From Pseudooceanicola sediminis (GTDB lineage Bacteria; Pseudomonadota; Alphaproteobacteria; Rhodobacterales; Rhodobacteraceae): a stretch of DNA of 64,000 bases. The first letter of the stretch is position 1; every line of letters begins with the position of its first letter. Both the position numbers and the translations under genes were made by a program. The notes below the pieces were generated by a model that saw only the letters and a list, made by a program, of their open reading frames with translations, searched no databases and was not told the DNA's origin. The DNA lies in the NCBI RefSeq assembly GCF_003575965.1, contig NZ_QWJJ01000007.1, forward strand, positions 186,838 to 250,837, read 5' to 3'. Positions 1,727-39,595 of the stretch are shown piece by piece.

Positions 1727-2428
1727 TTGACTGTAGGTACTCCAGTTCCCACGACTTCGGAACTCGAAGACTACCTCGAGCGCCTGCGGCCGACAGTAGA
1801 CGAGACGATCGACAGGCTAGGTGCAACCCGCTTCCGGGAAGATCCCATCGCGGGTAGAAAGTACTCCCGTGCGACCTCGATTATCAGCTCAGCCTACAAA
1901 AGACATGGCGCCATCCTTCAAAGGGCCCTACTTGAGCGGCTTAAGGACTGCGCAAGGTTGCGCGTTTGGACAGAGGACGACTTCAAGCTTTCACATGACA
2001 CACTCCGGGAGGTCCGGATCGCGGAGCGGCTAGACTCCTTGTTGCAAGCGCACCTTCCGTATGGAGATCGTGAACGCTCCGTGCGCGTCGACATCTTGGT
2101 ATTCGACGAGGTAAGTCGCTCCCTAAACGCCTACAATGTCAAACGCGGCAACGGCTCATACGATGGAGGAAAGCGGCGCCTTATTCACGAAGAGCTCGTC
2201 CGCACCCAGATGCTTCTCAGCGATTACGGCCGCGGGCTTGGGCTCTGGTCGGAGACGAGCAATGCTCACGTCATCTTCTACTACGGCCTTCTATCGCTAC
2301 CACCGCCACTTGCGATCTCTGGTTACGATCTCGACGAGCATTTCCAATTTCCTGTCCATGAGGCAATCGAACTCGTTAACGCCTATTTCGTTGCGCGGTT
2401 ATCAGCGCTCATCGAGCAGGAAGACTAG
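1727..2428 (+). CDS. Hypothetical protein, possible degenerate PD-(D/E)XK nuclease
   Basis: A 233-residue protein starting at TTG 1727; an AAGGAAGAAG ribosome-binding site lies just upstream and supports this start. I do not recognise a named family. The central stretch VDILVFDE followed by LNAYNVKRG has the spacing of the core strands of a PD-(D/E)XK nuclease (Asp, then x-x-K), but the usual Glu/Gln before the Lys is replaced (NVK), so catalysis is uncertain. There is no signal peptide and no membrane segment. It is divergently paired with the GHKL ATPase, and a shared regulatory region would let the two be co-expressed. The nuclease reading is inference. Confidence 0.6.
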   Translation: MTVGTPVPTTSELEDYLERLRPTVDETIDRLGATRFREDPIAGRKYSRATSIISSAYKRHGAILQRALLERLKDCARLRVWTEDDFKLSHDTLREVRIAERLDSLLQAHLPYGDRERSVRVDILVFDEVSRSLNAYNVKRGNGSYDGGKRRLIHEELVRTQMLLSDYGRGLGLWSETSNAHVIFYYGLLSLPPPLAISGYDLDEHFQFPVHEAIELVNAYFVARLSALIEQED

Positions 2429-2620
2429 CCCCACCAATGTTATAGGTAGCTCCGTGCGCACGTTGCTCGGTCCCCGATTGCGGTTCGATCCCAGTCCTAT
2501 TTGAATAGGTGGGACCAAGATCGGAAACATTTCTTGCCGCACTCTTTTCCCGTTTTCTTTCAATGTCTTGGAAGAAATTCACCAAACCAATGCAGTTAAC
2601 AGGTCCGGAGAATTTCGGGC

Positions 2621-2733
2621 CGAGAGAACGCTTTCGGGTCTCCTGACACCTGTGGCGGTGCCTAGCCTGCCCCGCAAACCCCTTTGAAAACACGAAAAAA
2701 TCCAGCCGCAGCCGAATCGAGAGAACGCTTTCG
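2621..2733. repeat. 16-bp direct repeat pair just outside attL
   Basis: CGAGAGAACGCTTTCG occurs at 2621-2636 and again at 2718-2733, 97 bp apart. It is nearly self-complementary (CGAGAG/CTTTCG around AACG). It lies on the chromosomal/older-island side of attL, so it may be a recombinase or regulator site of the neighbouring island. Confidence 0.55.
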
Positions 2734-2743
2734 CGGGGGCAAG

Positions 2744-2762
2744 TGGCGGAGGAGGTGGGATT
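2744..2762. repeat. attL core (copy of tRNA-Ser 3' end)
   Basis: TGGCGGAGGAGGTGGGATT is identical to 39506-39524. After it the sequence diverges (TCGCGCC here, CGAACCC in the tRNA). It begins with the complement of the tRNA CCA end. It is what remains of the original 3' end of the target tRNA gene after integration. Confidence 0.92.
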
Positions 2763-2818
2763 TCGCGCCCTCGATAGACCCTTTATTTGCAAGACATGAA
2801 ATAGAGGTGTGCGCCATT

Positions 2819-2841
2819 TTGTGACCCAATTTGTGATCCAA
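2819..2841 (+). promoter_or_regulatory. Candidate integrase arm-type sites, left
   Basis: Two tandem copies, TTGTGACCCAA (2819-2829) and TTGTGATCCAA (2831-2841), with a 12-bp period, lie 57 bp inside attL. Matching copies lie near attR (39381-39415). Short direct repeats flanking the core are the usual arm sites of lambda-type integrases. Confidence 0.65.
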
Positions 2842-3142
2842 TTCTGATACCTTTATGTTACGGCACCTCACATAATCTGCAGGACATTCATCTCTATCCG
2901 TCAGCACCTCGCGCGCGTTCAGGTTCTCACGCCCTACAGGCGTCGATGGGCTGCTTGAGCGAAATTCGACATTCGATCATTTGCCTCTTTACTGCGCAGC
3001 GCCAGCAGACCGGGCGGAGAGCAGAAGTTCGCTGCAATGCAGCCGAAAGACTGGATGTTTCACCAAAGCGGACATTTAGGCTTCCTCTTGAAAGCGTATC
3101 GTAGAAAGCAGATACTCAATCGACAGATGAGGTTGAGCGATA

Positions 3143-4219
3143 GTGTTTCATGCGAGTGAGGATAGTCTAGACGACCTATTGAGGGCCGTTTTCAAGCAGC
3201 TGCTCACAGGGCGCGGGAATTTTGAAGTCGAATCCAGCAAAGGTAGAAGCACTGAGGTCTTCGGTGCGCTCTTAGAGCTCAAGAACCCGCGCGCGCGACT
3301 AAGCAGATCGTTTTCGAAAGCTAAAGCCTTTAGTCCACTTGGCGAGTTGTTTTGGTACTTGGCGGGCAGCGATAGCGTCGATTTCATCAAACACTACATC
3401 CCCAACTATCCAAAACTGATAAAAGACGAAGTTACTGCAAATGGGGCCTACGGACCGCGAATATTCGGAAAAGGGGCACTAGAAAAGCGTGACGAAGTTA
3501 GCGAGTGGGATCGGGTGATCCGTACTTTGCGTGAGCGAGAGGGCTCGCGCAACGCAATAATACAGATTTACGCTAACTCCGATGCTAGGCCCGAGAACGG
3601 CGACAAGCCTTGTACCTGCACCATTCAATTTGCGGTTAGGAATGGGCAGTTGTTGATGCACACGCATATGCGGTCCAATGACGCATTCTTCGGCCTCCCG
3701 CACGACATTTTCACTTTTACTATGCTTCAGGAGGTTGCGGCTCGTGAACTTGGGTTTGGGCTGGGTAAGTATACCCATTCTGTGACAAGCCTACACTTGT
3801 ACCATGACTATGCGGCAACTGAGGGTCGCCCAGCGAACACTTCAACATCTGGCGCCAAAGCGTACTACAGGGAGGGTTTCCATGATTTCTCGCCAATGCC
3901 TGAAATGCCATCAGGAGACCCATGGCCGAGCATAGAAAAGGTAAAAATGGCAGAGCAAGAAATCCGATCTGGCAACATCGAGTACATCGCTCCAACAGAC
4001 CTTGATCCGTACTGGCGCGACTTCATTGAGCTTTTCAGAATCCACAAAATATTTGAGGAAATGAAGAAGCGCGGAGATGGCCTTAGAACCGAGAGGCCCG
4101 AGCTGCGCAGAGTTGTGAAGGTCATGAAAGAAACTTCACCGACCTATCGGATCTACATCCTCGGTAGGCTCGAAAGAAAACAATCCCCCGTTAGGGATCT
4201 ATTTGAGAATGTAAGTTGA
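3143..4219 (+). CDS. Thymidylate-synthase-fold pyrimidine hydroxymethylase-like protein
   Basis: 358 residues from GTG 3143. It belongs to the ThyA fold: an N-terminal phosphate-loop region GRSTEVFG (34-41), ELFWYLAGS (68-76), a PC motif with candidate catalytic Cys157, RSND (177-180) and HLY (218-220). In ThyA the motif after RSxD reads GLPFN; here it is GLPHD (184-188), so Asp188 replaces the Asn that selects uracil. In the family this Asn-to-Asp change marks dCMP hydroxymethylases (phage T4 gp42 type). The His after the catalytic Cys is Thr. It is about 95 residues longer than ThyA, with a basic C-terminal tail. The next gene starts 10 bp downstream, so the two form one unit. It is not the housekeeping thyA. 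Substrate assignment is inference from one residue plus context. Confidence 0.8.
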   Translation: MFHASEDSLDDLLRAVFKQLLTGRGNFEVESSKGRSTEVFGALLELKNPRARLSRSFSKAKAFSPLGELFWYLAGSDSVDFIKHYIPNYPKLIKDEVTANGAYGPRIFGKGALEKRDEVSEWDRVIRTLREREGSRNAIIQIYANSDARPENGDKPCTCTIQFAVRNGQLLMHTHMRSNDAFFGLPHDIFTFTMLQEVAARELGFGLGKYTHSVTSLHLYHDYAATEGRPANTSTSGAKAYYREGFHDFSPMPEMPSGDPWPSIEKVKMAEQEIRSGNIEYIAPTDLDPYWRDFIELFRIHKIFEEMKKRGDGLRTERPELRRVVKVMKETSPTYRIYILGRLERKQSPVRDLFENVS

Positions 4220-4229
4220 GAGGTGGGTC

Positions 4230-5168
4230 ATGAACGGTGTCCACAAAGACAGAATAGACGAGTTCCTCGGAAAGATTGGCCAGATTGACGCGCAATTTGG
4301 CCCACTCCCCAGTATTGCAACAGCCCAGCGGAGACGTTGCTGGGCGCAACAAATCGTGTCCAGCCTACGTCGAATTTCATATACAGACACGTTGTTGATG
4401 CGTAGAGTGAATGCGGCGAGGTGTGATCCGCATTCCGGTATTTTCGACCCGGTACGAGGGGCGCTTCACTTTCAGAGAAGCGGACAACTCGATGAAGCGG
4501 TCTGGTTAACTTTCGTCCTCACCCATTTTGGAAAACACGCGGTAGATGAATGGAAGCTGGCTGCAAATGTCTATGGTTCGTTTAGCGTGGGACCAGTTTG
4601 GACGTTCGCACAGTATACTGCAGACCGTGCAGGGTTCGAGAACATGTTGGCCGCAAACTCTGGCCGGTTGGCGGACGCCAACATTTCGGGTAGTTTTTCT
4701 AACCACCGCAAATTTCAGAGCAAGAAACATCAAGCCATAGCGAAGACGTTTCGCACGTACTATGAGTGGCAGACTGAGTTCGGCGGATTTCGTGATCGAA
4801 TGATCGCGACACATGCAAGTTTCGGTCAGGAACCCGAAGCGGCTTTCGATGCTCTCTACAAGTCCATGAAGGGGGTTTTTGGCTTCGGTGGAGGACGCCT
4901 CGGAAGGTTCGATTTCCTTACGATGCTCGGCAAACTTCAGCTTGCTCCGATTACACCAGGCAGCGTCTACTTGGATAAGGCAACAGGACCTCTTGCAGGG
5001 GCACGGCTTCTGTTTTTCGGTGATCGCGACCATCACATTACCGGTAGAGCCTTGGAGCCTCACGTTGATGCCTTGGACGGGGTTCTTGGCGTGGGAAAAC
5101 AGGTGATCGAAGACAGCCTTTGCAATTGGCAAAAAAGCCCTGATGTTTACGAGTATTTCCGAGGTTGA
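4230..5168 (+). CDS. aGPT-pyrophosphorylase-like (clade 3) protein
   Basis: 312 residues, ATG 4230 preceded by GAGAGGTGG. It matches my memory of the helical family named alpha-glutamyl/putrescinyl thymine pyrophosphorylase clade 3, which was predicted computationally to act on hydroxymethylated bases in DNA. Diagnostic stretches are FDPVRGALHFQRSG (72-85), DEAVWLTFVLTHFGKH (88-103), AFDALYKSM (205-213), RFDFLTMLGKLQLA (226-239), GPLAGARLLF (253-262) and EDSLCNWQKSP (294-304). No signal peptide or membrane segment. It follows the hydroxymethylase-like gene by 10 bp and converges on the antitoxin gene, overlapping it by 22 bp. Family relatives attach amino acids or amines to activated hydroxymethylpyrimidines; the reaction here is unproven. 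The identification is from motif recall without a database search. Confidence 0.7.
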   Translation: MNGVHKDRIDEFLGKIGQIDAQFGPLPSIATAQRRRCWAQQIVSSLRRISYTDTLLMRRVNAARCDPHSGIFDPVRGALHFQRSGQLDEAVWLTFVLTHFGKHAVDEWKLAANVYGSFSVGPVWTFAQYTADRAGFENMLAANSGRLADANISGSFSNHRKFQSKKHQAIAKTFRTYYEWQTEFGGFRDRMIATHASFGQEPEAAFDALYKSMKGVFGFGGGRLGRFDFLTMLGKLQLAPITPGSVYLDKATGPLAGARLLFFGDRDHHITGRALEPHVDALDGVLGVGKQVIEDSLCNWQKSPDVYEYFRG

Positions 5169-6271
5169 GAAGGGACCGGCAGTTTAGTGCTCCCTTCCCA
5201 TTTGTAACGGCGCTTTAGATCATTAAATTGGTGGGGCTGGAGCGCCCCAGCTTTTTGAAGCTGTCCGACAATAATTCCCGGTGTGACCCCGGCTTTTCGA
5301 GCGATTCTCCGTACATGAGGACGGGTCGGCATTGCGTTTAACATCTCATCTCGCAAGTCAGCCGAAACAAGCGTATCTTGAGCGAAAATGTCAGCTTCGC
5401 CTTCGAATACAGACGCTCCTAGCGGTGACGGATCAGCGCCATCCACCGAAATGTGGTCAGTGCCATGCAGAACCACGTGTGCGGCCTCGTGGAAAAAAGT
5501 GAACCAAAAATGGTCTTCACTTAAATAGCGAAAGCTTAGCAAGATAATCGGGTTGCCGTTTGGGGATGTCCAAGTGGCACCGCTTGCTCTACAACCTTTC
5601 GGGGCCTTCGAGCTTACCAGGCCAACACCTTCCTCAGCGCAAGCTTGCTGCAGTTTTGGAAAGAATAACTCCGGGCGCTTGAGCGCACATAGCTTCTTCA
5701 ACTCAGTCAGACGTTTCTTGAAATTGCTCGCGGAAAACTTCGCCAAGGTCAGGTTTTCAGCTTGCATCTCTCCGATACGCAGCCAGGCCAAAGTCGCCAT
5801 CTCGTCGGCCTCAAAGGCAAAAGATGTTCGAAATGCAACTTGGCCTATCCCAGCGGAGTACCGCTGGTTCCAACCGCTGATGCTATCGCATCCAAAAAAG
5901 TTCAGGATGTCCTCGGATAGACGCTCACCGCGAGAGCCTTTCGGCAGCCAACCGAGTTCTCGGAGGGCTCGAACTGGAAACGACTGCCCCCACCTAGACA
6001 ACTCTTCGGTTGGCGCAGAACCTGCAAGCCGCGCTCTATCTCCCAGAAACTGGTTATAGCGTTCAATCCAGAACTGGCGTGATGCACCAAGCTCCGAAGA
6101 TAGGGCGTCTGCGATTTCTTCGGAAATCACAACGCGCCCTTCCATTATTCCAGAAAACAAGTCTTCTTCGAACCCGATGCGTTCGGCCAAATCGTGAATT
6201 GATTTTTTTCCAGCCGCAGCCAGCCTTGCGATTGTGTCGCCCGGTGGGGAAGCCCAGTTTGGTTCAAACAT
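5147..6271 (-). CDS. HTH / ImmA-IrrE metallopeptidase-domain antitoxin
   Basis: 374 residues. I chose ATG 6271, which overlaps the stop of the preceding gene as TGATG; the frame also opens with TTG at 6274. Residues ~10-75 form an XRE/HigA-type helix-turn-helix (RLAAAGKKSIHDLAERIGF). Near residue 261 is HEAAH inside FTFFHEAAHVVLHG, the zinc signature of ImmA/IrrE peptidases. Such fusions act as antitoxin and autorepressor of a RelE-like toxin encoded just upstream, or as a protease that removes a repressor. Translational coupling to the upstream 116-codon gene supports the antitoxin reading. The 3' end overlaps the convergent aGPT-like gene. Confidence 0.8.
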   Translation of the reverse strand: MFEPNWASPPGDTIARLAAAGKKSIHDLAERIGFEEDLFSGIMEGRVVISEEIADALSSELGASRQFWIERYNQFLGDRARLAGSAPTEELSRWGQSFPVRALRELGWLPKGSRGERLSEDILNFFGCDSISGWNQRYSAGIGQVAFRTSFAFEADEMATLAWLRIGEMQAENLTLAKFSASNFKKRLTELKKLCALKRPELFFPKLQQACAEEGVGLVSSKAPKGCRASGATWTSPNGNPIILLSFRYLSEDHFWFTFFHEAAHVVLHGTDHISVDGADPSPLGASVFEGEADIFAQDTLVSADLRDEMLNAMPTRPHVRRIARKAGVTPGIIVGQLQKAGALQPHQFNDLKRRYKWEGSTKLPVPSQPRKYS

Positions 6272-6621
6272 CAAGCAAACACCTCCCCTTCAATTACGAT
6301 AGCTTTCAGGTGGATTCGATGAGCATCTTTCCACGCTTCGTCTCCAACGCCGGATGCAGCTATCACCGTCTTCAGTGTGCAGCCAGTGGATACGAACCAG
6401 TCCAGCTCAAAGGTGCCTTCTACTTTCGTCGCCGAAAGCGGTCCCATAGGTACGTCACCGGCAAAGAACGCCGCCCTGAAATCCGCCACCAAACCAATGA
6501 ACGCCTGACCGTCCTCACTTCCGAGGTGACGGTAGGCTTTCTTGCGTTCTGTTGCCAAGTCCCTCATGAGCTTGCTCGAAAAAGTCGGTTCCAAGGATCC
6601 AGCATCCCAAAAGTTGCACAA
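6271..6621 (-). CDS. Putative RelE/HigB-like toxin
   Basis: 116 residues, opened by TTG 6621; the true start could be slightly downstream, since the ribosome-binding site is weak. The N-terminal part SSKLMRDLATERKKAYRHLG resembles the start of killer/HigB proteins of the RelE superfamily (basic helix, then a helix containing the FRAAF run). The downstream antitoxin-like gene overlaps by TGATG, the arrangement seen in higBA-type modules. If correct, the product is a ribosome-dependent mRNA interferase. The assignment rests on order and weak motif similarity. The pair would help keep the prophage in the host. Confidence 0.55.
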   Translation of the reverse strand: MCNFWDAGSLEPTFSSKLMRDLATERKKAYRHLGSEDGQAFIGLVADFRAAFFAGDVPMGPLSATKVEGTFELDWFVSTGCTLKTVIAASGVGDEAWKDAHRIHLKAIVIEGEVFA

Positions 6622-7158
6622 AATGGAGCCTTGGAAGGCACGTCGCTTACAATATCTTCCCAGCAGTCATACATGCAGCGGGTGTAGCGGGCGTGGTCGC
6701 GAAAGTCACTAGCGAACTGTCGTGCGGATAGGACCCGCTGGCAACATCTGCCACACTGATCTGTTTGGGAACGATGCGCAGAGTGGCTCAATGCCGATGC
6801 TGACCAAGGAAAGGGGCTCGATGCGCGAGCGCCTCCGGATGTACCTGATGGACTATCAGCTCTATGCGGGCCTCTTCAGTTGCAGGGCGTGCCGCGCTTC
6901 CTTCTCGGCGGCTGTATCCTTCACCCTGTACAAGGCGCGCGAGGTTTCTGCGCCGTCGCCAATTCTGGGTAATGCTGCGCAGTGTCTATACGACTGCTAT
7001 AGAGGAGCTGGAGCGCAGCATTATGATCCTCCGCGAAGGTCAGCTCTGGGCCGGTCGTGTCGTTCAGCCACGATAAGGCTCTGCCGATCAGCGCACCCGC
7101 TCCCTGTGTATTCGGAGCGTGTCGTCAAGTTAGGCGGGGCGTTTCCGCCCCGCTCAAG
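6622..7158. other. Intergenic gap between toxin module and lysis cassette
   Basis: About 540 bp. The frames here are short or antisense to Rz1, and none has a convincing start signal. The stretch 6960-7076 (+) reads like the end of a degraded gene (a frame ending YTTAIEELER...VVQPR) but has no recognisable relative. I see no promoter or repeat I would defend. Confidence 0.4.
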
Positions 7159-7347
7159 CTACCGGCAAGCGCCGGTCATGGCTGCATCGGTGACAGCAAC
7201 CCAAGCGCCGAGGGACGTGTCGGGCAGCGGGCGGGGCATATGGCTGCGCTCGGCGCCATAGGTCTGGCATCCGGCCCCGCTCGGGATCTCCGGCGCACAG
7301 GCGGCAAGCGCCAGAACGATCAGCACCGCACCGCACCTCATTTCCAA
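7159..7347 (-). CDS. Rz1-like outer-membrane spanin lipoprotein
   Basis: 62 residues with a short hydrophobic signal and the lipobox LAAC, so the mature protein is an acylated, Pro-rich outer-membrane lipoprotein. Its start lies inside the 3' end of the inner-membrane spanin gene in another frame, the nested Rz/Rz1 layout. With its partner it would fuse inner and outer membranes at the last step of lysis. It is the last gene of the late operon. Small size and out-of-frame overlap make it easy to miss. Confidence 0.75.
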   Translation of the reverse strand: MEMRCGAVLIVLALAACAPEIPSGAGCQTYGAERSHMPRPLPDTSLGAWVAVTDAAMTGACR

Positions 7348-7565
7348 GCCTCATCATTCTGGCGTGCGATCTGTTCGGGCGACTGATCGGAGCGCAGAGC
7401 GTCGGCTGCTGCCGCCCTGCCCCGATCCGCCCGGTGATCTGCCTCGCGCGCCTGGTCGAGCCGCGCCGAGCGGCGGCCGCCCCGGCGCGCGGCGACCACG
7501 GCCGCCATCACCAGGGCCACGCCCGCCACCAGCTTCAGCCAGATCCGCGACAGCAGCGCGCTCAT
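7338..7565 (-). CDS. Rz-like inner-membrane spanin
   Basis: 75 residues from ATG 7565, which overlaps the stop of the holin gene (ATGA). It has one N-terminal membrane segment (LVAGVALVMAAVVAA) followed by an Arg/Ala/Glu-rich helix likely to be coiled coil in the periplasm. Overlap with the Rz1-like lipoprotein gene supports the spanin role. A longer upstream frame start at 7700 is rejected because it would run through the holin gene. Confidence 0.7.
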   Translation of the reverse strand: MSALLSRIWLKLVAGVALVMAAVVAARRGGRRSARLDQAREADHRADRGRAAAADALRSDQSPEQIARQNDEAWK

Positions 7566-7771
7566 GTCGTGCCGCCCTTCTTCTTCACGATGCGACTGGC
7601 GGCAAAGGTGCCACCAAAGACCGACAGCCCCGCCAGCACCTCGACCAGCGGTTCGATCTGAATGGTCAGCGTCCCGGCCTCGGGATTGAACGTCGCCCAT
7701 CCCTGCCCGGCCACGAAGGCCCCGCCGAGGTAAAGCGCCATGCGAATGAACAGGCCAATGCTTCCAGCCAT
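7562..7771 (-). CDS. Putative holin, two membrane segments
   Basis: 69 residues, ATG 7771 with AAAGGAG upstream. Two hydrophobic stretches (IGLFIRMALYLGGAFVAG and VLAGLSVFGGTFAAS) and a charged C-terminus KKKGG are typical of small phage holins. It lies between the endolysin and the spanins. It would form the inner-membrane lesions that release endolysin. Confidence 0.7.
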   Translation of the reverse strand: MAGSIGLFIRMALYLGGAFVAGQGWATFNPEAGTLTIQIEPLVEVLAGLSVFGGTFAASRIVKKKGGTT

Positions 7772-7801
7772 GTGAGTGTCTCCTTTCTGAAGGTGTTGAG
7801 A

Positions 7802-8464
7802 TCAGGCGACGGCGCGCACGCCGAACAGCTGCGCCAGGAACGCGGCAAGGGGCGAGCGATCCGCCGGGCGGGCTTTGGCCGGGGCGCTTTGCATCGGCGC
7901 CGGGATGATCACGGCCGCGCGCGCCAGACGGGTCGCACGATCAAGTACGCCGCAGTCATCGGCTTGCGCGCCCGCGTTCTTGCCGATGACCCGCACCGAC
8001 CAGCCCGCGCCGAAGGTGCGCCAGGTCCGCAGCCCACGCAGGAAGCGCATGCGCCGGGCACAGAGCGCGGCAATCACCGCCTCGACGTCGGCGCCATTGG
8101 CGGCCGCCAGCGTCTGCGCGCCGACAATCCCGTCGACCGAGACCCCCAGCACCCGCTGCAGCTCCCTGGCCGCGTGCCCCACGCCGGAGTTCACCGCGTA
8201 GTCGCCAACGCAGTAATCAAGCCCAGTAGGCAGCAGATCCGCCCCCACCTTGTCGAGGTATTGGTGCGCGATGATCGCCTCGGCCTCGGCCTTCGGGATC
8301 CCGCGCACCGGGCGCAGACGCTGGCCGTGCATCCGGTTCCAGGCATCAAAGGTGCCTTGGGTGATGCCGCGATCCGTCGCGCCGCCAGGATCGTCGGGAT
8401 GATGCACATAGCCCCCCTCCGACAGGCCGATCCAGGATTGGATAAGCTGATAGTTCTTCCGCAT
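7802..8464 (-). CDS. Endolysin, glycosyl hydrolase 108 family
   Basis: 220 residues. ATG 8464 was chosen because AAGGAG precedes it closely; an in-frame ATG at 8479 is less well placed. The N-terminus has the GH108 hallmark EGGYVHHPDDPGGATDRGIT, with the catalytic Glu in EGG. Further in is a region resembling a peptidoglycan-binding repeat (LGVSVDGIVGAQTLAAA). The C-terminus is Ala/Pro-rich. It degrades peptidoglycan at lysis. There is no signal peptide, so it depends on the holin. An 11-bp GC hairpin followed by T residues sits just upstream. Confidence 0.9.
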   Translation of the reverse strand: MRKNYQLIQSWIGLSEGGYVHHPDDPGGATDRGITQGTFDAWNRMHGQRLRPVRGIPKAEAEAIIAHQYLDKVGADLLPTGLDYCVGDYAVNSGVGHAARELQRVLGVSVDGIVGAQTLAAANGADVEAVIAALCARRMRFLRGLRTWRTFGAGWSVRVIGKNAGAQADDCGVLDRATRLARAAVIIPAPMQSAPAKARPADRSPLAAFLAQLFGVRAVA

Positions 8465-11536: not shown

Positions 11537-12489
11537 CAGGCCACTCCTGTGATGGTGAAGGAATATTCGTACTCATCCGGCAGATCCTCGCCCCACTTGA
11601 CGGGCCCGAGGATGCCGAACTGCACGCTGGAGGCGCGCGTGGGGGAGCCGATGGCGGCCACCAGAGACCCGGAGTTGCGGTCCAGCTCGGGCTTGATCTG
11701 ATCCCAGAGGGCTTTCGAGGCGACGACGCGATAATCCATCTCGACCCGCGTCGGCCCCTTGGCCAGCGTCAGACTGCCATAGTCGTTGAAGCTGTAGCGG
11801 CTACCGCTGATCGAGCGTCCTTCGGTGCTGCCCACCTGCGCCGCGCCAATCGAGAGGCTGGCGCCCAGGAACAGCTCGCCCAAACTCACCCGACTGCCCC
11901 GCAGCGCCACGATCACGCGGCGTGTCGTACCCGGAATATCCAGCACCACCAGCTTGTCGGAATAGGCCCCGAAGGGGGTGGAGAACCAGGCCCACCAGTC
12001 CCGCACCTGCCGACCGGACAAGTTGGTGTCCCGGTCCAGCAGCACCTTGTCGTTGATGTCGAGACAGATCAGCCGGGCGCTGCTGGCCCGCACCCCGAAC
12101 AGGATCAGCGTATCGACCCCCGACAGCCCCGGCATGTCGAGGATGATCGGTGCACTCGCCGGATCAATCCCGAAGCTGGGATCGAGCCAGGGCACCTCGG
12201 CGTCGGGTTCCTCGAAGGCCACCGTGGCATTGCTCAGCACCCCGTCGAAGCAGGCAAAGGCGTTGGTGTAGCGATCAAACACCCAGCGTGCCGCCACCAC
12301 CGACTGATCCTCGACCAGCGGATCGAGGCCGAGGTTGTCCGGGATCGCCGACTGATAGATCCGGTGATCGCGCACCACCCGCGCGTTGAGCGGATAGGTC
12401 ACGCCCGCAGCCCACGCCGGGGCATCCTCCTCGGGGATCGAACAGCGCACCTGCCCCAGGTCCGGAGCAAACTTGCGTGAGATGAACAT
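11536..12489 (-). CDS. Phage distal tail protein, hypothetical
   Basis: 317 residues directly after the tape measure gene, where distal-tail or baseplate hub genes lie in siphophages. The sequence is beta-rich, with an early PAWAAGVTYPLNARVVRDHRIYQS segment resembling small carbohydrate-binding modules. No catalytic motif is visible. The assignment rests on order. Confidence 0.7.
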   Translation of the reverse strand: MFISRKFAPDLGQVRCSIPEEDAPAWAAGVTYPLNARVVRDHRIYQSAIPDNLGLDPLVEDQSVVAARWVFDRYTNAFACFDGVLSNATVAFEEPDAEVPWLDPSFGIDPASAPIILDMPGLSGVDTLILFGVRASSARLICLDINDKVLLDRDTNLSGRQVRDWWAWFSTPFGAYSDKLVVLDIPGTTRRVIVALRGSRVSLGELFLGASLSIGAAQVGSTEGRSISGSRYSFNDYGSLTLAKGPTRVEMDYRVVASKALWDQIKPELDRNSGSLVAAIGSPTRASSVQFGILGPVKWGEDLPDEYEYSFTITGVA

Positions 12490-12492
12490 GGC

Positions 12493-15400
12493 TCAGAACT
12501 CCCTTTCAACAGGCATGCCGATTGTTTCCCAGCCCTCGATCAGATCGACCAGGCGGCGCAGGGCGTTGGTTTGCGCGGTGTCGCCCTCACTCAGCCGTCC
12601 GAGGCTGGCGGCCAGCGTCACACCGGCGTCGCCTGCCGCATGCACATCCGCCGCATAGCCGCGCGCCTCGGCAATCGAGGCGATCCGGGCGTCGAACTCC
12701 GAGGCGTAGTAGCTGCCGAGGTCATATCCGCCGGAGAGATCCGGCAGCCCCACCTCGGCCAGATCGGACACGCCGCCCTTCACCTTGACGAAGAGGTCCG
12801 AGAGCGACAGCAGCGCGGCATAGGTCTTGCGCCCCGCCTCGGTCATCAGATCCTGCCCGGTCACCAGGTCGCGGAACTGACGCGCCGTCTGCGGTACCGC
12901 CAGCCCGAGGGCGCCAAGACGCCGCCCCAGCTCCTCGCTGGCCATGCCGAGCTGCTCGCTTTCCGAGTAGAAGGTGTTGGTGAAGCTGGCGATCTGGCCC
13001 GACAGGCTGGAGAGGCCGCCCGCCGCGTTGATCAGCTCATCGGACGCCCAGACCATGGCCTGCGCCGTGCCTGCAAAGCCCTGTCCCAGCGGCGTCAGCA
13101 TCGCGCTCACATCCGCGAAGGCCGACCACAGGCCCCTGGTCCCGGCATCGAACTCCAGGAACTGATCAGAGAGCGCCAGCAGGGTGGCATAGGTCTTCTG
13201 GCCCGCCGTGGTCATCAGGTCCTGCCCGGTGACCAGGTTGCGGAACTCTTCCGTGGTCTTCGGCACCGCCAGCCCAAGCTCGGCGAACTGGCCATGCACC
13301 GAGGCGCTGACCATGCGGAAGCGCTCGGCGTCGGTGTAAAAGCCCTGCGTGAAGCTGGAGATCCGGCTTGCCAGCGTGTCGATGCCGCCCGCGATATCGG
13401 CCAGGGCATCCGCTGACAGGGCCATGTTCTGCAGCGTGCCGACAAAGCTGTGCCCGATGGGATCCAGCAGGGTCTTCAGCGTGGCAAAGTTCTGCAGGGC
13501 ATCATAGCCAACCCCGGCAAAGGCCTGCGTGACCGTGTCGGCATAGCCCGCGAACCACGCCTCGACCTTGGCCTGCACCTCGGCCTCCGACATCCCCTTC
13601 GTGTCGATCTGGTCCAGGGCGACATCGACCCCGGCCACCATGGATGTGGTGACGCCCGTGCCCGCCAACTTGAAGGCCTGGGCGACCGAGGCCTGCACCT
13701 CGCCCAGCTGATCGTCAAGCATGGCCTGCGTCGCCGCGTCAAAGCCCGCGAGGCTGGTCGAGGTGCGTTTCTTCAGACCCCACCAGCTGCTCTTGCGGGT
13801 GGTCTCGAAGGTGCCGCCCGCCAGACCGCCGCCCTGCACGCCAAGCTGCAGGCCGGAGCCGATCAGCTTCCTGGAGGAAAAGCTCTTGATCAGCCCGATC
13901 CCGGCGGTCACCGCGCCGATGATCGGCATGGCGGCCGAGAGCGCGCTGCCGATCCCCGCCATCGACAGGCCACCGGCGAGTTCCGAGGTAACCGCGCCGA
14001 AGGCCGACGACAGGCCGCCGGTGATCGCGCCGATGCCCGCACCATCCTTGCCAAGCGAGGCCTGAAGCAGATCACCGAAGCCTTGCGAAGCGGCATTGCC
14101 CACGCCGGACTTGAGATCCCCGAGCGCCCCGGCAATGTCACCGGAGGCGAAGGAGGCCATGGTGCCCTGCACCGCCCGACCGAGATCGGTAACCTCCTCC
14201 TTCAAGTCCTTGATCGGGCTTTTGCCATTGCGGCCCAAGGTGCTGAGGTTCCTGTCGAGGTCGGAGACCGCATCGCCGCTCTCTTCCAGTGCCTTCGTCA
14301 CGCCGACCGTGGCCGCCTCGACCTCCCCGGCCCCCGCCTCGCCGGTCTTGGAGGTTTCGGCCAGTGCCGCCTTCAGGGCGGCCACCGACTTGAGCGGTGC
14401 CTTGATACCCTCCGCCAGCTTGGCGTTCTCGGCCTGCATGTTGCCGATGCTGCCCTGCAGCTCGTCAATCGCTGCCTGCGTGGCATAGACCTTTGCGCCT
14501 GCCGAGATCGCGGCATTGCCGACCGCGAGGTAGGCGTCATCCATGAACGGCACATCGCGCAGCTGGTCTTTGATCCCATGCAGGAAATCAGCCCATTTTG
14601 TCTGCACCGCCACCAGCATCTTCAGCGCGCCGATCTCGATGGTCTGCCAGATCTCCGCCATGCGGTTCTGCAGGATCTGTCCCGCGTCAGCGATGCGCGC
14701 GAAGGCTTCCGAGGCGACATCCTTGGCCAGGGCCAGCGCCGTGCCAAAGCCGCCAACGCGCTCCATCGCGCCCTTCAGCTTTACCCCGACATAGACGGCA
14801 CCGGCGGCCAGTGCCGCAAAGCCTCCGACCATCAGACCGATAGGCGAGGCAATGGCGACCACCACGGGCAAGAGTGCCGAGGCCGCCGCCGCCATGCCGC
14901 CGAGCGCCAGCAGCGCCGGGCCGAGGCTGGCCGCCACCGCGCCGCCGATCACCACGAAGCGTTTCGTCTCCGGCGACAACCCCTGGAACGCGACGGCCAT
15001 GTCGGAAACGCGCCCGGCGATGTCCGCCGCCACCGGCAGGACAATCGCCCCGACCTGTTCCATGGCATCGCCGATATCCATCATCGCGGCCTGGATCTGT
15101 CCCGAGGGCAGATCACGCAGCGCCTGCGCCTGACCGGCGTATTGCTGGCGCAGCGCCTCCAGGATCTTTTCCTGCGCGCCCGAGACATCCCCCAGCTCGA
15201 CCATCGTCTTGATGGTGGCCTTCTGCTGCTCCGAGAAGGACACGCCGACCCGACTCAGCGCCGACAGGCCTTTCACCGGATCGTTCAACGCCTTGCCCAG
15301 CATGATCGCCGAGCTTTGCAGGTCCTGCCCAAGCGCCGCCGACATGTCGAGCGCCGCCTGCTGCGCCCCGACGAAGACCTCGCCGGTGACATTGCCGAAG

Positions 15401-15780
15401 GTCAGCATGGTGGAGGTCACGCGGCCGAGGATATCCTCATCGCCGAACAGCGACGTGCCCTGCAGCCCGCTCGCCATGCTCTGCAACTGCTCGGAGGTGA
15501 AGCCCGCCGTCTGGCCCATCGAGGCCAGCGCCGCATCGACCTGTGCCACCGCATTGGCCTGCACCCCCTGCAGGTTCATCGACTGCTTGGCAATCGCCAC
15601 CAGCGGCGCCGTCAGCCCGAGCGACATCCGCCCGCCAATCTTGCCGAAGTCCTTCGCCAGCCCGGAGAAGTCCTTTTGCATGCGGCGCATGCTCAGCGTC
15701 GCCTCGGATGCCCCCTTGTGGAACTGCGCCGAGTTCATGCCGAGATCGACGCGCAGCGCGCCGATGATGCCCTTGAACAT
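12493..15780 (-). CDS. Tail tape measure protein
   Basis: 1095 residues, the longest gene of the phage. The N-terminus (MFKGIIGALRVDLGMNSAQFHKG) is of the TP901-type tape measure class. The central part has hydrophobic, Gly/Ala-rich segments (about residues 265-330 and 590-650), and the C-terminal third contains two related copies of a block ending EEFRNLVTGQDLMTTAGQKT / ARQFRDLVTGQDLMTEAGRK. The internal duplication probably reflects tail-length evolution. It sets tail length and may assist DNA entry. It follows the tail chaperone frameshift ORF by 3 bp, as expected. Confidence 0.92.
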   Translation of the reverse strand: MFKGIIGALRVDLGMNSAQFHKGASEATLSMRRMQKDFSGLAKDFGKIGGRMSLGLTAPLVAIAKQSMNLQGVQANAVAQVDAALASMGQTAGFTSEQLQSMASGLQGTSLFGDEDILGRVTSTMLTFGNVTGEVFVGAQQAALDMSAALGQDLQSSAIMLGKALNDPVKGLSALSRVGVSFSEQQKATIKTMVELGDVSGAQEKILEALRQQYAGQAQALRDLPSGQIQAAMMDIGDAMEQVGAIVLPVAADIAGRVSDMAVAFQGLSPETKRFVVIGGAVAASLGPALLALGGMAAAASALLPVVVAIASPIGLMVGGFAALAAGAVYVGVKLKGAMERVGGFGTALALAKDVASEAFARIADAGQILQNRMAEIWQTIEIGALKMLVAVQTKWADFLHGIKDQLRDVPFMDDAYLAVGNAAISAGAKVYATQAAIDELQGSIGNMQAENAKLAEGIKAPLKSVAALKAALAETSKTGEAGAGEVEAATVGVTKALEESGDAVSDLDRNLSTLGRNGKSPIKDLKEEVTDLGRAVQGTMASFASGDIAGALGDLKSGVGNAASQGFGDLLQASLGKDGAGIGAITGGLSSAFGAVTSELAGGLSMAGIGSALSAAMPIIGAVTAGIGLIKSFSSRKLIGSGLQLGVQGGGLAGGTFETTRKSSWWGLKKRTSTSLAGFDAATQAMLDDQLGEVQASVAQAFKLAGTGVTTSMVAGVDVALDQIDTKGMSEAEVQAKVEAWFAGYADTVTQAFAGVGYDALQNFATLKTLLDPIGHSFVGTLQNMALSADALADIAGGIDTLASRISSFTQGFYTDAERFRMVSASVHGQFAELGLAVPKTTEEFRNLVTGQDLMTTAGQKTYATLLALSDQFLEFDAGTRGLWSAFADVSAMLTPLGQGFAGTAQAMVWASDELINAAGGLSSLSGQIASFTNTFYSESEQLGMASEELGRRLGALGLAVPQTARQFRDLVTGQDLMTEAGRKTYAALLSLSDLFVKVKGGVSDLAEVGLPDLSGGYDLGSYYASEFDARIASIAEARGYAADVHAAGDAGVTLAASLGRLSEGDTAQTNALRRLVDLIEGWETIGMPVEREF

Positions 15781-38084: not shown

Positions 38085-39338
38085 CTACAGCGCGACCAGC
38101 TGGACCGCCGCAAGCTTAGCGGGCAGGCCGCCACCCTCGCCGTAGCGCTGACGCCCCAAAGCGTGCCCCATCAAATCACGGCGCACCCTCTCATCGACAC
38201 CTGCCGTCAGCAAGCGATCCTCAAACGAATGGCGCAGCCCATAGATCGTATGATCGGGCGTCTCCTGCAGGCCGTTCTGGGACAGGAATTTGTTGATCGT
38301 CGCCGACAGGCCCGGCTTGTCGTGATACCGCGACAGGCCGCCCTCGCGCAGCGCCTCCAGAGACACGCCCGCCAGCGGGATTTCGCGCTCGCTCGTGTGG
38401 CTTTTCAACTGTCGACCCTCGCCTCTGATCAGCACATGCGGCACGTTAGCTGTCAGATCAATGTGGTGTGGATGCAGCGCCGCGGCCTCGCTCAGACGCA
38501 TCCCGGTATTGACCATGGATAGAACAATCCGTCGGGCGTCTGCATTCAGCCCCGCGAGGCCCGGCAGAAGGCGCGTGCGGATCCACTCGGTTGAATACGG
38601 TGGGCGCGTTCCAGGCTTGCCTTCCTTGAACGCAAGGCCTGCCACCGGTGGCACAAACCCCAGCCGCTTGCGCGACGCAACCGTGCGCAGGACCGTTGCA
38701 ATATAGGTGAAATCCTTGTTCGCCGAATGCGGCTTGATGCCGTCATCGGCAATCCTGTCCAGCCACCATTCGCGAAAGTCCTGCATGTCATCATGACTGA
38801 TCTGATCGATCGGCACATCACCGATCACCCCGATCAGATTGTTGATCGCCTTGATATGCGGATTGCGCCAGCGCCGGATCTGATCCGGTGATTTCTCCAG
38901 CGTCTTTTCGCGCGCCAGAGACCAGTACAGTTCCAAGGCGCTGCTGATCGTCATCTGCGGCGGCTGGGCACCGCCAAGCACAGCCCGCGCTTCCAGCGGA
39001 TCCGGCACGCCGTCGCGCACCGGCACGGCCTCTACCCGCGACAACAACTGATCAACCGGCAGCTTGGCCACATCCTCTGCCTGCCGGAATCGGAACCCCC
39101 GCGCGGCGGCCAGATCGCGCGCCGCTGACCATGCCGCATCGGCATCGCCGTCCGCGCCAGCCCTGCGCGCTTCCCAGCTGTCGATCAGCTCAGCCCAGAC
39201 GCGCGCCGCCTTTTCACGTGCGATCATTTCGCTGTCGGTATGCAGCGACAGCTTGACGAACGTGCGCGCCTCGATCGCCGCATAGCGCGACGGCACACGC
39301 CGACGGAGGAGGAAAGTTTTACCGCGCTTGATGATCAT
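38085..39338 (-). CDS. int: Tyrosine integrase
   Basis: 417 residues from ATG 39338 (MIIKRGKTFLLRRRVP); the frame also opens at 39362. Domain order is N-terminal arm-binding, core-binding (LELYWSLAREKTLEKSPDQI), then catalytic. Catalytic residues: Arg in NTGMRLSEA, the second-box Arg in YGLRHSFEDR, His in MGH and Tyr in RQRYGEGG; the usual His of the HxxR box is Tyr. It integrates the prophage at tRNA-Ser, 145 bp away. Related to roseobacter DUF6538-type integrases by its N-terminal layout. Confidence 0.93.
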   Translation of the reverse strand: MIIKRGKTFLLRRRVPSRYAAIEARTFVKLSLHTDSEMIAREKAARVWAELIDSWEARRAGADGDADAAWSAARDLAAARGFRFRQAEDVAKLPVDQLLSRVEAVPVRDGVPDPLEARAVLGGAQPPQMTISSALELYWSLAREKTLEKSPDQIRRWRNPHIKAINNLIGVIGDVPIDQISHDDMQDFREWWLDRIADDGIKPHSANKDFTYIATVLRTVASRKRLGFVPPVAGLAFKEGKPGTRPPYSTEWIRTRLLPGLAGLNADARRIVLSMVNTGMRLSEAAALHPHHIDLTANVPHVLIRGEGRQLKSHTSEREIPLAGVSLEALREGGLSRYHDKPGLSATINKFLSQNGLQETPDHTIYGLRHSFEDRLLTAGVDERVRRDLMGHALGRQRYGEGGGLPAKLAAVQLVAL

Positions 39339-39505: not shown

Positions 39506-39524
39506 TGGCGGAGGAGGTGGGATT
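39506..39524. repeat. attR core inside tRNA-Ser
   Basis: TGGCGGAGGAGGTGGGATT, identical to 2744-2762. It covers the CCA end, acceptor stem and part of the T-arm, so integration restores a complete tRNA. Confidence 0.92.
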
Positions 39525-39595
39525 CGAACCCACGGTACGCTCTCACGCACGCCGGTTTTCAAGACCGGTGCATTAGACCACTCTGCCACTCCTCC
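39506..39595 (-). tRNA. tRNA-Ser(TGA)
   Basis: 90 nt including the encoded CCA. Acceptor stem GGAGGAG pairs with CTCCTCC; anticodon loop CTTGAAA gives TGA; a long variable arm (GCGTGCGTGAGAGCGTACC region) is typical of serine tRNA; T-loop GGTTCGAATCC is intact. The 3' end is the prophage integration site and its sequence is supplied by the phage on this side. Confidence 0.97.

Follow-up and report, generated by a model that had tools for sequence, protein, structure and literature searches.

The stretch of DNA analysed here (the window, 64,000 nucleotides of contig NZ_QWJJ01000007.1 of Pseudooceanicola sediminis) carries near its left end four adjacent genes, which we call TS, AG, B and S, lying just inside a prophage (Table 1). 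The prophage spans approximately positions 2744-39524 at a tRNA-Ser site, with its integrase close to the right end; TS starts 380 bp inside attL, and the intergenic gap between TS and AG is 10 bp. A first-pass annotation, made from the letters of the window, had described TS and AG as a two-gene unit at the end of a prophage. The location of these two open reading frames (ORFs) was as it described, and the position at the prophage end is borne out by the 19-bp repeats, the tRNA-Ser gene and the integrase domain. Its view that no other partner was visible has to be given up, as two conserved genes, B and S, lie directly downstream on the opposite strand, and what it read as a minimal two-gene pathway is a unit of four genes. 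For S, a second TTG at 6594 agrees better with the starts of its relatives.

Table 1. Features of the four-gene locus and of the surrounding prophage (positions in the window)
Feature	Position	Strand	Description
TS	3143..4219	+	GTG start, 358 aa; thymidylate-synthase fold; predicted deoxycytidine monophosphate (dCMP) 5-hydroxymethylase
AG	4230..5168	+	ATG start, 312 aa; aGPT-Pplase clade 3 / ADDT family
B	5147..6274	-	375 aa; Xre/HigA-like helix-turn-helix fused to ImmA/IrrE (M78) metallopeptidase, PD-lambda-2B-like
S	6271..6621	-	HigB/RelE-like small protein
Transferred cassette, outer limits	3077..6970		blastn similarity to relatives L008-L015
attL core, 19-bp direct repeat	2744..2762	+	
attR core, 19-bp direct repeat	39506..39524	+	inside 3' end of tRNA-Ser (39506-39595, -)
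Prophage integrase, Phage_integrase domain	38160..38537	-	PF00589, 6.8e-9, 37.1 bits, over cut-off

TS, AG, B and S almost certainly belong together as one unit. Genome loci were chosen by scanning contigs with the AG of the window alone, and the presence of the other genes at the 36 loci obtained was scored with profiles iterated on those same loci. TS was found at 33 of them, B at 34, S at 34 and all four genes at 32, upholding the pairing of TS with AG in other genomes. The 36 loci are not all independent, since about seven (L008-L014) are close relatives of the window, with AG identities of 87-94%. TS-AG and S-B are convergent in 31 of the 32 complete loci (the exception is L029), and the stop codons of AG and B lie -22 to +7 bp apart in 42 of 44 loci. 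As for the incomplete loci, L033 and L039 lie at contig ends, all that L040 retains of AG is its last 45 residues, and at L034 AG stands by itself. On plasmids, relatives of AG were present in 8 of 72,556 records; the 8 best of 159 TS plasmid records were the same eight, and all of them were among the nine best of 62 B plasmid records. Regions from six of these eight were examined and each held all four genes, with AG broken in L048. Moreover, a profile scan of viral contigs (26 loci, including copies: L213 is identical to the window, L218 and L219 are copies, and L223 and L224 lie on one contig) found TS at 25, B at 25 and S at 23, the misses being at contig ends. The cassette was encountered in seven phyla (Pseudomonadota, Chloroflexota, Acidobacteriota, Bacteroidota, Myxococcota, Actinomycetota and, with AG broken, Spirochaetota), and yet the family of AG, PF18746, is rare: it occurred in 3 of 299 genomes drawn evenly from the phylum, the source genome being one of them, and in another of the three (G074) AG is not accompanied by TS, B or S. 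A match to the A3 profile was found in 1 of 385 genomes of the class, namely the source genome itself.

The four genes also share their history. In a blastn comparison of the window with its relatives (E up to 1e-10), DNA similarity to eight of them (L008-L015, 67-94% identical to the window in TS or AG) began at 3077-3125 and ended at 6709-6970; because it ends at the cassette edges, the four genes move as one unit of approximately 3.6 kb. At L016 the match was confined to the cassette interior, and L003 was identical to the window throughout. The genes (3143-6621) have a G+C content of 51.9%, as against 63.0% for the window. Pairwise protein distances, taken over 28 hand-picked loci, correlated for all six gene pairs (r 0.61-0.77, with 0 of 2000 permutations as high), which at the level of sequence shows that the genes are inherited together but does not alone establish that they act together. 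In an unrooted tree of 47 B proteins, the 29 module members fell together on one side of a 100/99 branch, and the sole non-module row among them was L054, a remnant on a plasmid that retains S and a short B but neither TS nor AG. The combination seems to have arisen once.

Profile searches placed both enzymes in the families proposed by the first-pass annotation. TS matches PF00303 at 8.1e-21, and the closest solved chains are MilA-type CMP 5-hydroxymethylases (5b6d/5jnh, 1e-43), with which it has in common the fold, the catalytic Cys and Glu and the cytosine-type Asp. For MilA-type enzymes it is reported that Asp186 marks cytosine users and Asn uracil users, and that Ala176/Lys133 mark ribose users and Ser/Arg deoxyribose users (PMC5175136); the corresponding residues given for the dCMP enzyme of phage T4 are Asp179 and Cys148 (PMC6400193). 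In our alignment of 28 TS rows, E68, C157, S178, D188, H218 and Y220 are present in 28/28 and R136 in 27/28. The catalytic Glu (E68) and Cys (C157) are thus in place, the residue at 188 is the cytosine-type Asp, and S178 and R136 are the deoxyribose forms, in contrast to the ribose-type Ala176/Lys133 of MilA. The Asn expected of a dUMP-type hydroxymethylase of the phage thymidine pathway stands at this position in gp58 of phage M6, which we take to be a dUMP hydroxymethylase, and in none of the module rows, so that the thymine or uracil pathway initially suggested for this locus is disfavoured. Judging from these conserved residues, TS is very probably a dCMP 5-hydroxymethylase. It is not the housekeeping thymidylate synthase of its host, because the host has ThyX (G000:C28:224268-224879) and no other PF00303 gene. 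Two TS genes on E. coli plasmids were also inspected; they stand in other gene contexts.

AG matches PF18746 (aGPT-Pplase3) at 6.3e-85 (285 bits, cut-off 25, residues 35-312) and PF18724 (ADDT) at 8.6e-80 (268 bits, cut-off 26.2, residues 67-307), and a CNWQKSP motif is present in 28/28 aligned AG rows. Its AlphaFold2 model is almost wholly helical, with a mean predicted local distance difference test (pLDDT) score of 92.2; no solved relative was found by sequence and no meaningful one by profile. A resemblance to HhH-GPD glycosylases (E 0.0047 over only 44 columns, with mismatched ends) was taken as no support for that fold. The same ADDT model is matched by gp51 of phage M6 (1.4e-46), and the end of the alignment of the AG and M6-type profiles spans a motif common to both, E-x-x-LC-x-W. 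Lee et al. (2018 and 2022) reportedly studied gp51 as a glycine transferase. By analogy with its family, AG may take a hydroxymethyl pyrimidine as substrate and couple an amino acid or an amine to it. The conserved genes of the cassette include no kinase for nucleotide or base, and no 5-hydroxymethyl-deoxyuridine DNA kinase; the search did not extend to the remaining prophage and genome.

B and S resemble a toxin-antitoxin pair. The only Pfam domain of B over its cut-off is PF06114 (9e-8); signals for its Xre/HigA-like part fail theirs (HTH_31 1.6e-4, HigA model 0.0017), and HExxH is present in 26/26 aligned B rows. The PADLOC models gave a match of B to PD-Lambda-2_B at 2.9e-27, and none for TS, AG or S. 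S has no Pfam match of its own and no solved relative in the structure-profile search; its AlphaFold2 model (mean pLDDT 87.7) has the element order b-aaa-bbb-a-bb. In profile-profile comparison S matched the HigB set of PF05015 at E 2.7e-4 over 115 columns, whereas the 22 other pairs of the same run gave 0.0047 (AG/HhH-GPD), 0.023 (B/HigB) and, for twenty, 0.25 or more. Beyond the S proteins of L052-L054, which were already part of it, the S profile recovers annotated RelE/ParE toxins that it did not contain, with values of 4e-15 to 5e-7 for four (L068, L069, L073, L167) and weaker ones for L170 (0.002) and L172 (0.009).

This pair recalls PD-lambda-2, in which a HigB-like protein A stands in tandem with an Xre-peptidase B that is toxic alone and rescued by A (Vassallo et al. 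2022, PMC9519451). The likeness lies in the tandem of a HigB-like protein and a HigA-like Xre/ImmA-IrrE protein, recognised for B by the PADLOC model and for S by profile comparison. In contrast, PD-lambda-2 as described there has a P4-antitoxin-related gene C that is required for defence and has neither TS nor AG, and in the cassette S-B is convergent with an enzyme pair. No conserved gene besides TS, AG, S and B was seen in the cassette, a search with a C profile not having been made, and we do not file it as PD-lambda-2. CapP and RosmerTA RmrA (PADLOC models) are likewise defence-linked M78 peptidases, matched more weakly by B and its relatives; their scores are far under that of PD-Lambda-2_B, and their partner genes differ from those of B.

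Genes of known defence systems stand in some flanks of the cassette and near relatives of B. A survey of 97 flanking proteins from 30 loci, with the first 25 of 219 matching PADLOC families listed and with no matched control set, gave Shedu SduA in four (L008, and L009, L010 and L012 by identity to the L008 protein), each gene within approximately 100 bp of TS; phage integrases accounted for six further matches, and GajA (Gabija) and type I and type III restriction models for one each. Relatives of B are not confined to the cassette: 54 of the 62 plasmid records with such a relative lack AG. In 18 of these 54 regions, chosen from the listed rows and not at random, and with neither TS nor AG beside B, the neighbours were read from annotation. 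Multiubiquitin-ThiF operons adjoin B in six (L069, L071, L072, L164, L168, L170), restriction genes lie near it in four (L053, L073, L166, L171), B adjoins TIR, E2 and cyclase genes in L070 and a DNA methyltransferase in L165, and in L172 it lies near an MqsR toxin and a PD-(D/E)XK nuclease gene. A small gene stands directly upstream of B in most of the 18 regions, none being annotated in L070 and L164.

A tblastn search (E up to 1e-5) found a close relative of AG in none of 50,697 phage records. This absence holds for close relatives only, because two aGPT-Pplase3-domain proteins have been reported from an Acinetobacter phage (PMC8878043).

Taken together, the best overall explanation in our opinion is that of a mobile four-gene cassette, most likely an anti-phage system, which is carried here as cargo of a prophage; we hold this with some confidence, and the antiviral role itself is probable. 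The comparison of sequences establishes the family membership of the proteins, their tight linkage, apparent single origin and transfer as a unit, their carriage by prophages and plasmids, and the defence genes in some flanks. Of the two alternatives raised by the first-pass annotation, a modification pathway and a defence unit, the latter is the likelier.

Several observations weigh against this explanation. Two AG loci (L034 and L058) are without TS, B or S, and AG compared directly with the M6-type profile gives a weak match (97 columns at an hhalign E of 0.0058, against 0.098 or more for each of four decoys); the studied members of the ADDT family, moreover, act on hydroxymethyluracil. Of nine annotated RelE/ParE toxins that are encoded upstream of B and were not in the S profile, the profile misses three (L166, L169, L171). 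Comparison of the TS and S promoters of 22 loci yielded no shared operator above the best of 30 shuffles (L050 equalled it), so that control of TS-AG by B is unsupported. In four of the 18 plasmid regions (L052, L068, L167, L169) B has no evident defence neighbour, L054 being unannotated, and the flank survey, given its design, shows no enrichment. Many phages have a TS relative in the wide sense (2134 of 50,697 records), and cassettes occur also in prophages and viral contigs, as a role in protecting phages would predict.

In this explanation TS would add a hydroxymethyl group to dCMP, as its conserved residues predict, and AG, to judge from its family, may then extend the hydroxymethyl pyrimidine with an amino acid or amine. 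As no kinase for nucleotide or base was seen in the cassette, the more economical product would be a free modified deoxycytidylate and not modified DNA; we put forward the free nucleotide only tentatively. By comparison with PD-lambda-2, S-B would be a toxin-antitoxin-like arm whose active component is the Xre-peptidase B, kept under control by the HigB-like S; on infection this arm may shut the cell down or alter its state. The candidates for the link between the two arms are a signal, a poison plus guard, and simple addiction. Perhaps TS and AG make an infection signal of a new kind, an amino-acid-modified 5-hydroxymethyl-deoxycytidylate, on a phage-raised dCMP pool, with B as both the receptor and the effector that S restrains; this we regard as highly improbable. 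If it were true, the logic would be like that of the cyclic-oligonucleotide-based antiphage signalling system (CBASS), with a single modified nucleotide replacing the cyclic one.

It may also be that TS-AG alone is the effector, hypermodifying phage DNA or poisoning its synthesis, and that S-B is only an addiction or guard pair which prevents loss of the cassette from its host, a part that toxin-antitoxin pairs play in other defence systems. The unrelated defence-type genes that adjoin B relatives agree with this division of labour, and so does the convergent arrangement in which no shared operator was found; the module B proteins, however, constitute a separate clade and vary together with TS and AG, which suggests specialisation over a free exchange of guards, and we consider this arrangement rather unlikely.

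A phage-serving role was also weighed, by which the prophage hypermodifies its own DNA through TS-AG against host restriction, like the phages with hydroxymethyl pyrimidines. The cassette does lie inside a prophage, close to attL, with a restriction-type helicase-nuclease gene to the left of attL; its relatives occur in viral contigs, the ADDT family includes the M6 protein, and the Acinetobacter phage mentioned above has its two aGPT-Pplase3-domain proteins. Yet none of the phage records has a close AG relative, the cassette is present on plasmids and chromosomes, partly beside defence genes, and the enzymes are tied to a toxin-antitoxin-like pair and come with no kinase. Modification of virion DNA is thus disfavoured, and protection of phage DNA appears improbable. 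A role in selfish maintenance or secondary metabolism, where the cassette would stabilise mobile elements or make a mildiomycin-type nucleoside with no antiviral role, would suit the antibiotic-pathway enzyme MilA as the closest solved relative of TS, as well as the toxin-antitoxin-like pair and the carriage by plasmids. Nevertheless, TS differs from MilA in having the deoxyribose forms Ser178 and Arg136, the cassette has no further biosynthesis or export gene, and defence genes lie in some flanks; we hold such a role to be most improbable.

The protein families are known, and so is the type of the toxin-antitoxin-like arm; their combination here is one that we have not found described. No description of the four-gene cassette was found in the literature searched; the surveys of Iyer, Burroughs and Aravind (2013/2015) were outside its scope, and an earlier notice there is possible. 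The nearest phage parallel is M6 (NC_007809), with a TS-fold protein (gp58) and an ADDT-family protein (gp51). In contrast to the module, gp58 is of the uracil type (Asn), and gp51 and gp58 lie apart among phage genes, with no four-gene cassette. According to Lee et al. (2018 and 2022), the thymidine hypermodification of M6 is said to involve further pathway genes. The DefensePredictor study (2026, PMC13092281) reports that units with a thymidylate-synthase domain and a 5-hydroxymethyluracil kinase were validated against phages in E. coli, and lists aGPT-Pplase among predicted, unvalidated defence domains; its main text, taken without Fig. 3C, Fig. 6F and the tables, mentions neither "HigB" nor "ImmA". 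Two further candidates differ from the cassette as far as these papers describe them, one being a one-component endonuclease (PMC12923530) and the other a 5-hydroxymethylcytosine glycosylase with aGPT unmentioned (PMC13160076). For PF18746 the literature searched gave predictions and no tested function, and the cassette now gives this family defined partner genes and a substrate that can be put to the test. Most known enzymes of DNA hypermodification come from phages, in which they act as shields. The association of a cytosine-type hydroxymethylase, an ADDT enzyme and an Xre-peptidase pair in seven phyla suggests that bacteria use related chemistry against phages. Moreover, the cassette would be one more defence-type partner for the recurrent HigA-ImmA proteins.

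On the plasmids with multiubiquitin-ThiF operons (L069, L071, L072, L164, L168 and L170, from Actinomycetota and Pseudomonadota), the HigA-ImmA genes are divergent from these operons, and upstream of most of them lies a small gene, of HigB type or other. This arrangement suggests that HigA-ImmA proteins are recurrently linked with ubiquitin-like systems. The lone AG relatives lie at L034:7941-8852 and L058:1651-2559, and that of L034 adjoins two genes which by eye are helicase-like (a large gene) and DNA methylase-like. At L029 (Sorangium), S and B lie downstream of AG on the same strand, and an ORF between AG and S (L029:9555-10019) resembles nucleoside deoxyribosyltransferases (PF05014, E 0.0021, which fails the cut-off). 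A complete cassette (L047:7033-10457) is found on a Pantoea agglomerans plasmid with portal, lysis and tail fibre assembly genes, which we read as P1-like; it adjoins a gene annotated as a restriction endonuclease.

In some lineages a conserved gene of approximately 264-286 aa, here gene X, sits between TS and AG (L023:7129-7926, L026-L030, L033, L048, L218, L219, L222 and L226), and most of its members have the motif LGLNPSNREFVD. It occurs in Chloroflexota, Acidobacteriota, Bacteroidota, Myxococcota, Planctomycetota and Spirochaetota and also in some viral contigs; the Planctomycetota locus (L033) reads TS, X and AG up to the contig end. A motif like that of uracil-DNA glycosylase (UDG) was seen in it by eye, and the assignment is unsupported (UDG profile E 0.79); the two members scanned match no Pfam family, and a PDB profile search gave no support.

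Around the cassette itself, the ORF upstream of it (1727-2428) lies outside both attL and the shared cassette, and a Pfam scan found no family over cut-off for it. An Rfam scan of 2000-8000 gave no match, and promoter and terminator scans gave results near chance level. Just beyond attL, to the left of the window, is a DEAD/ResIII helicase with an Mrr nuclease domain (L055:16410-18083), and further left, by eye, are a cytosine methyltransferase (14260-15501) and a serine recombinase (11599-12909).

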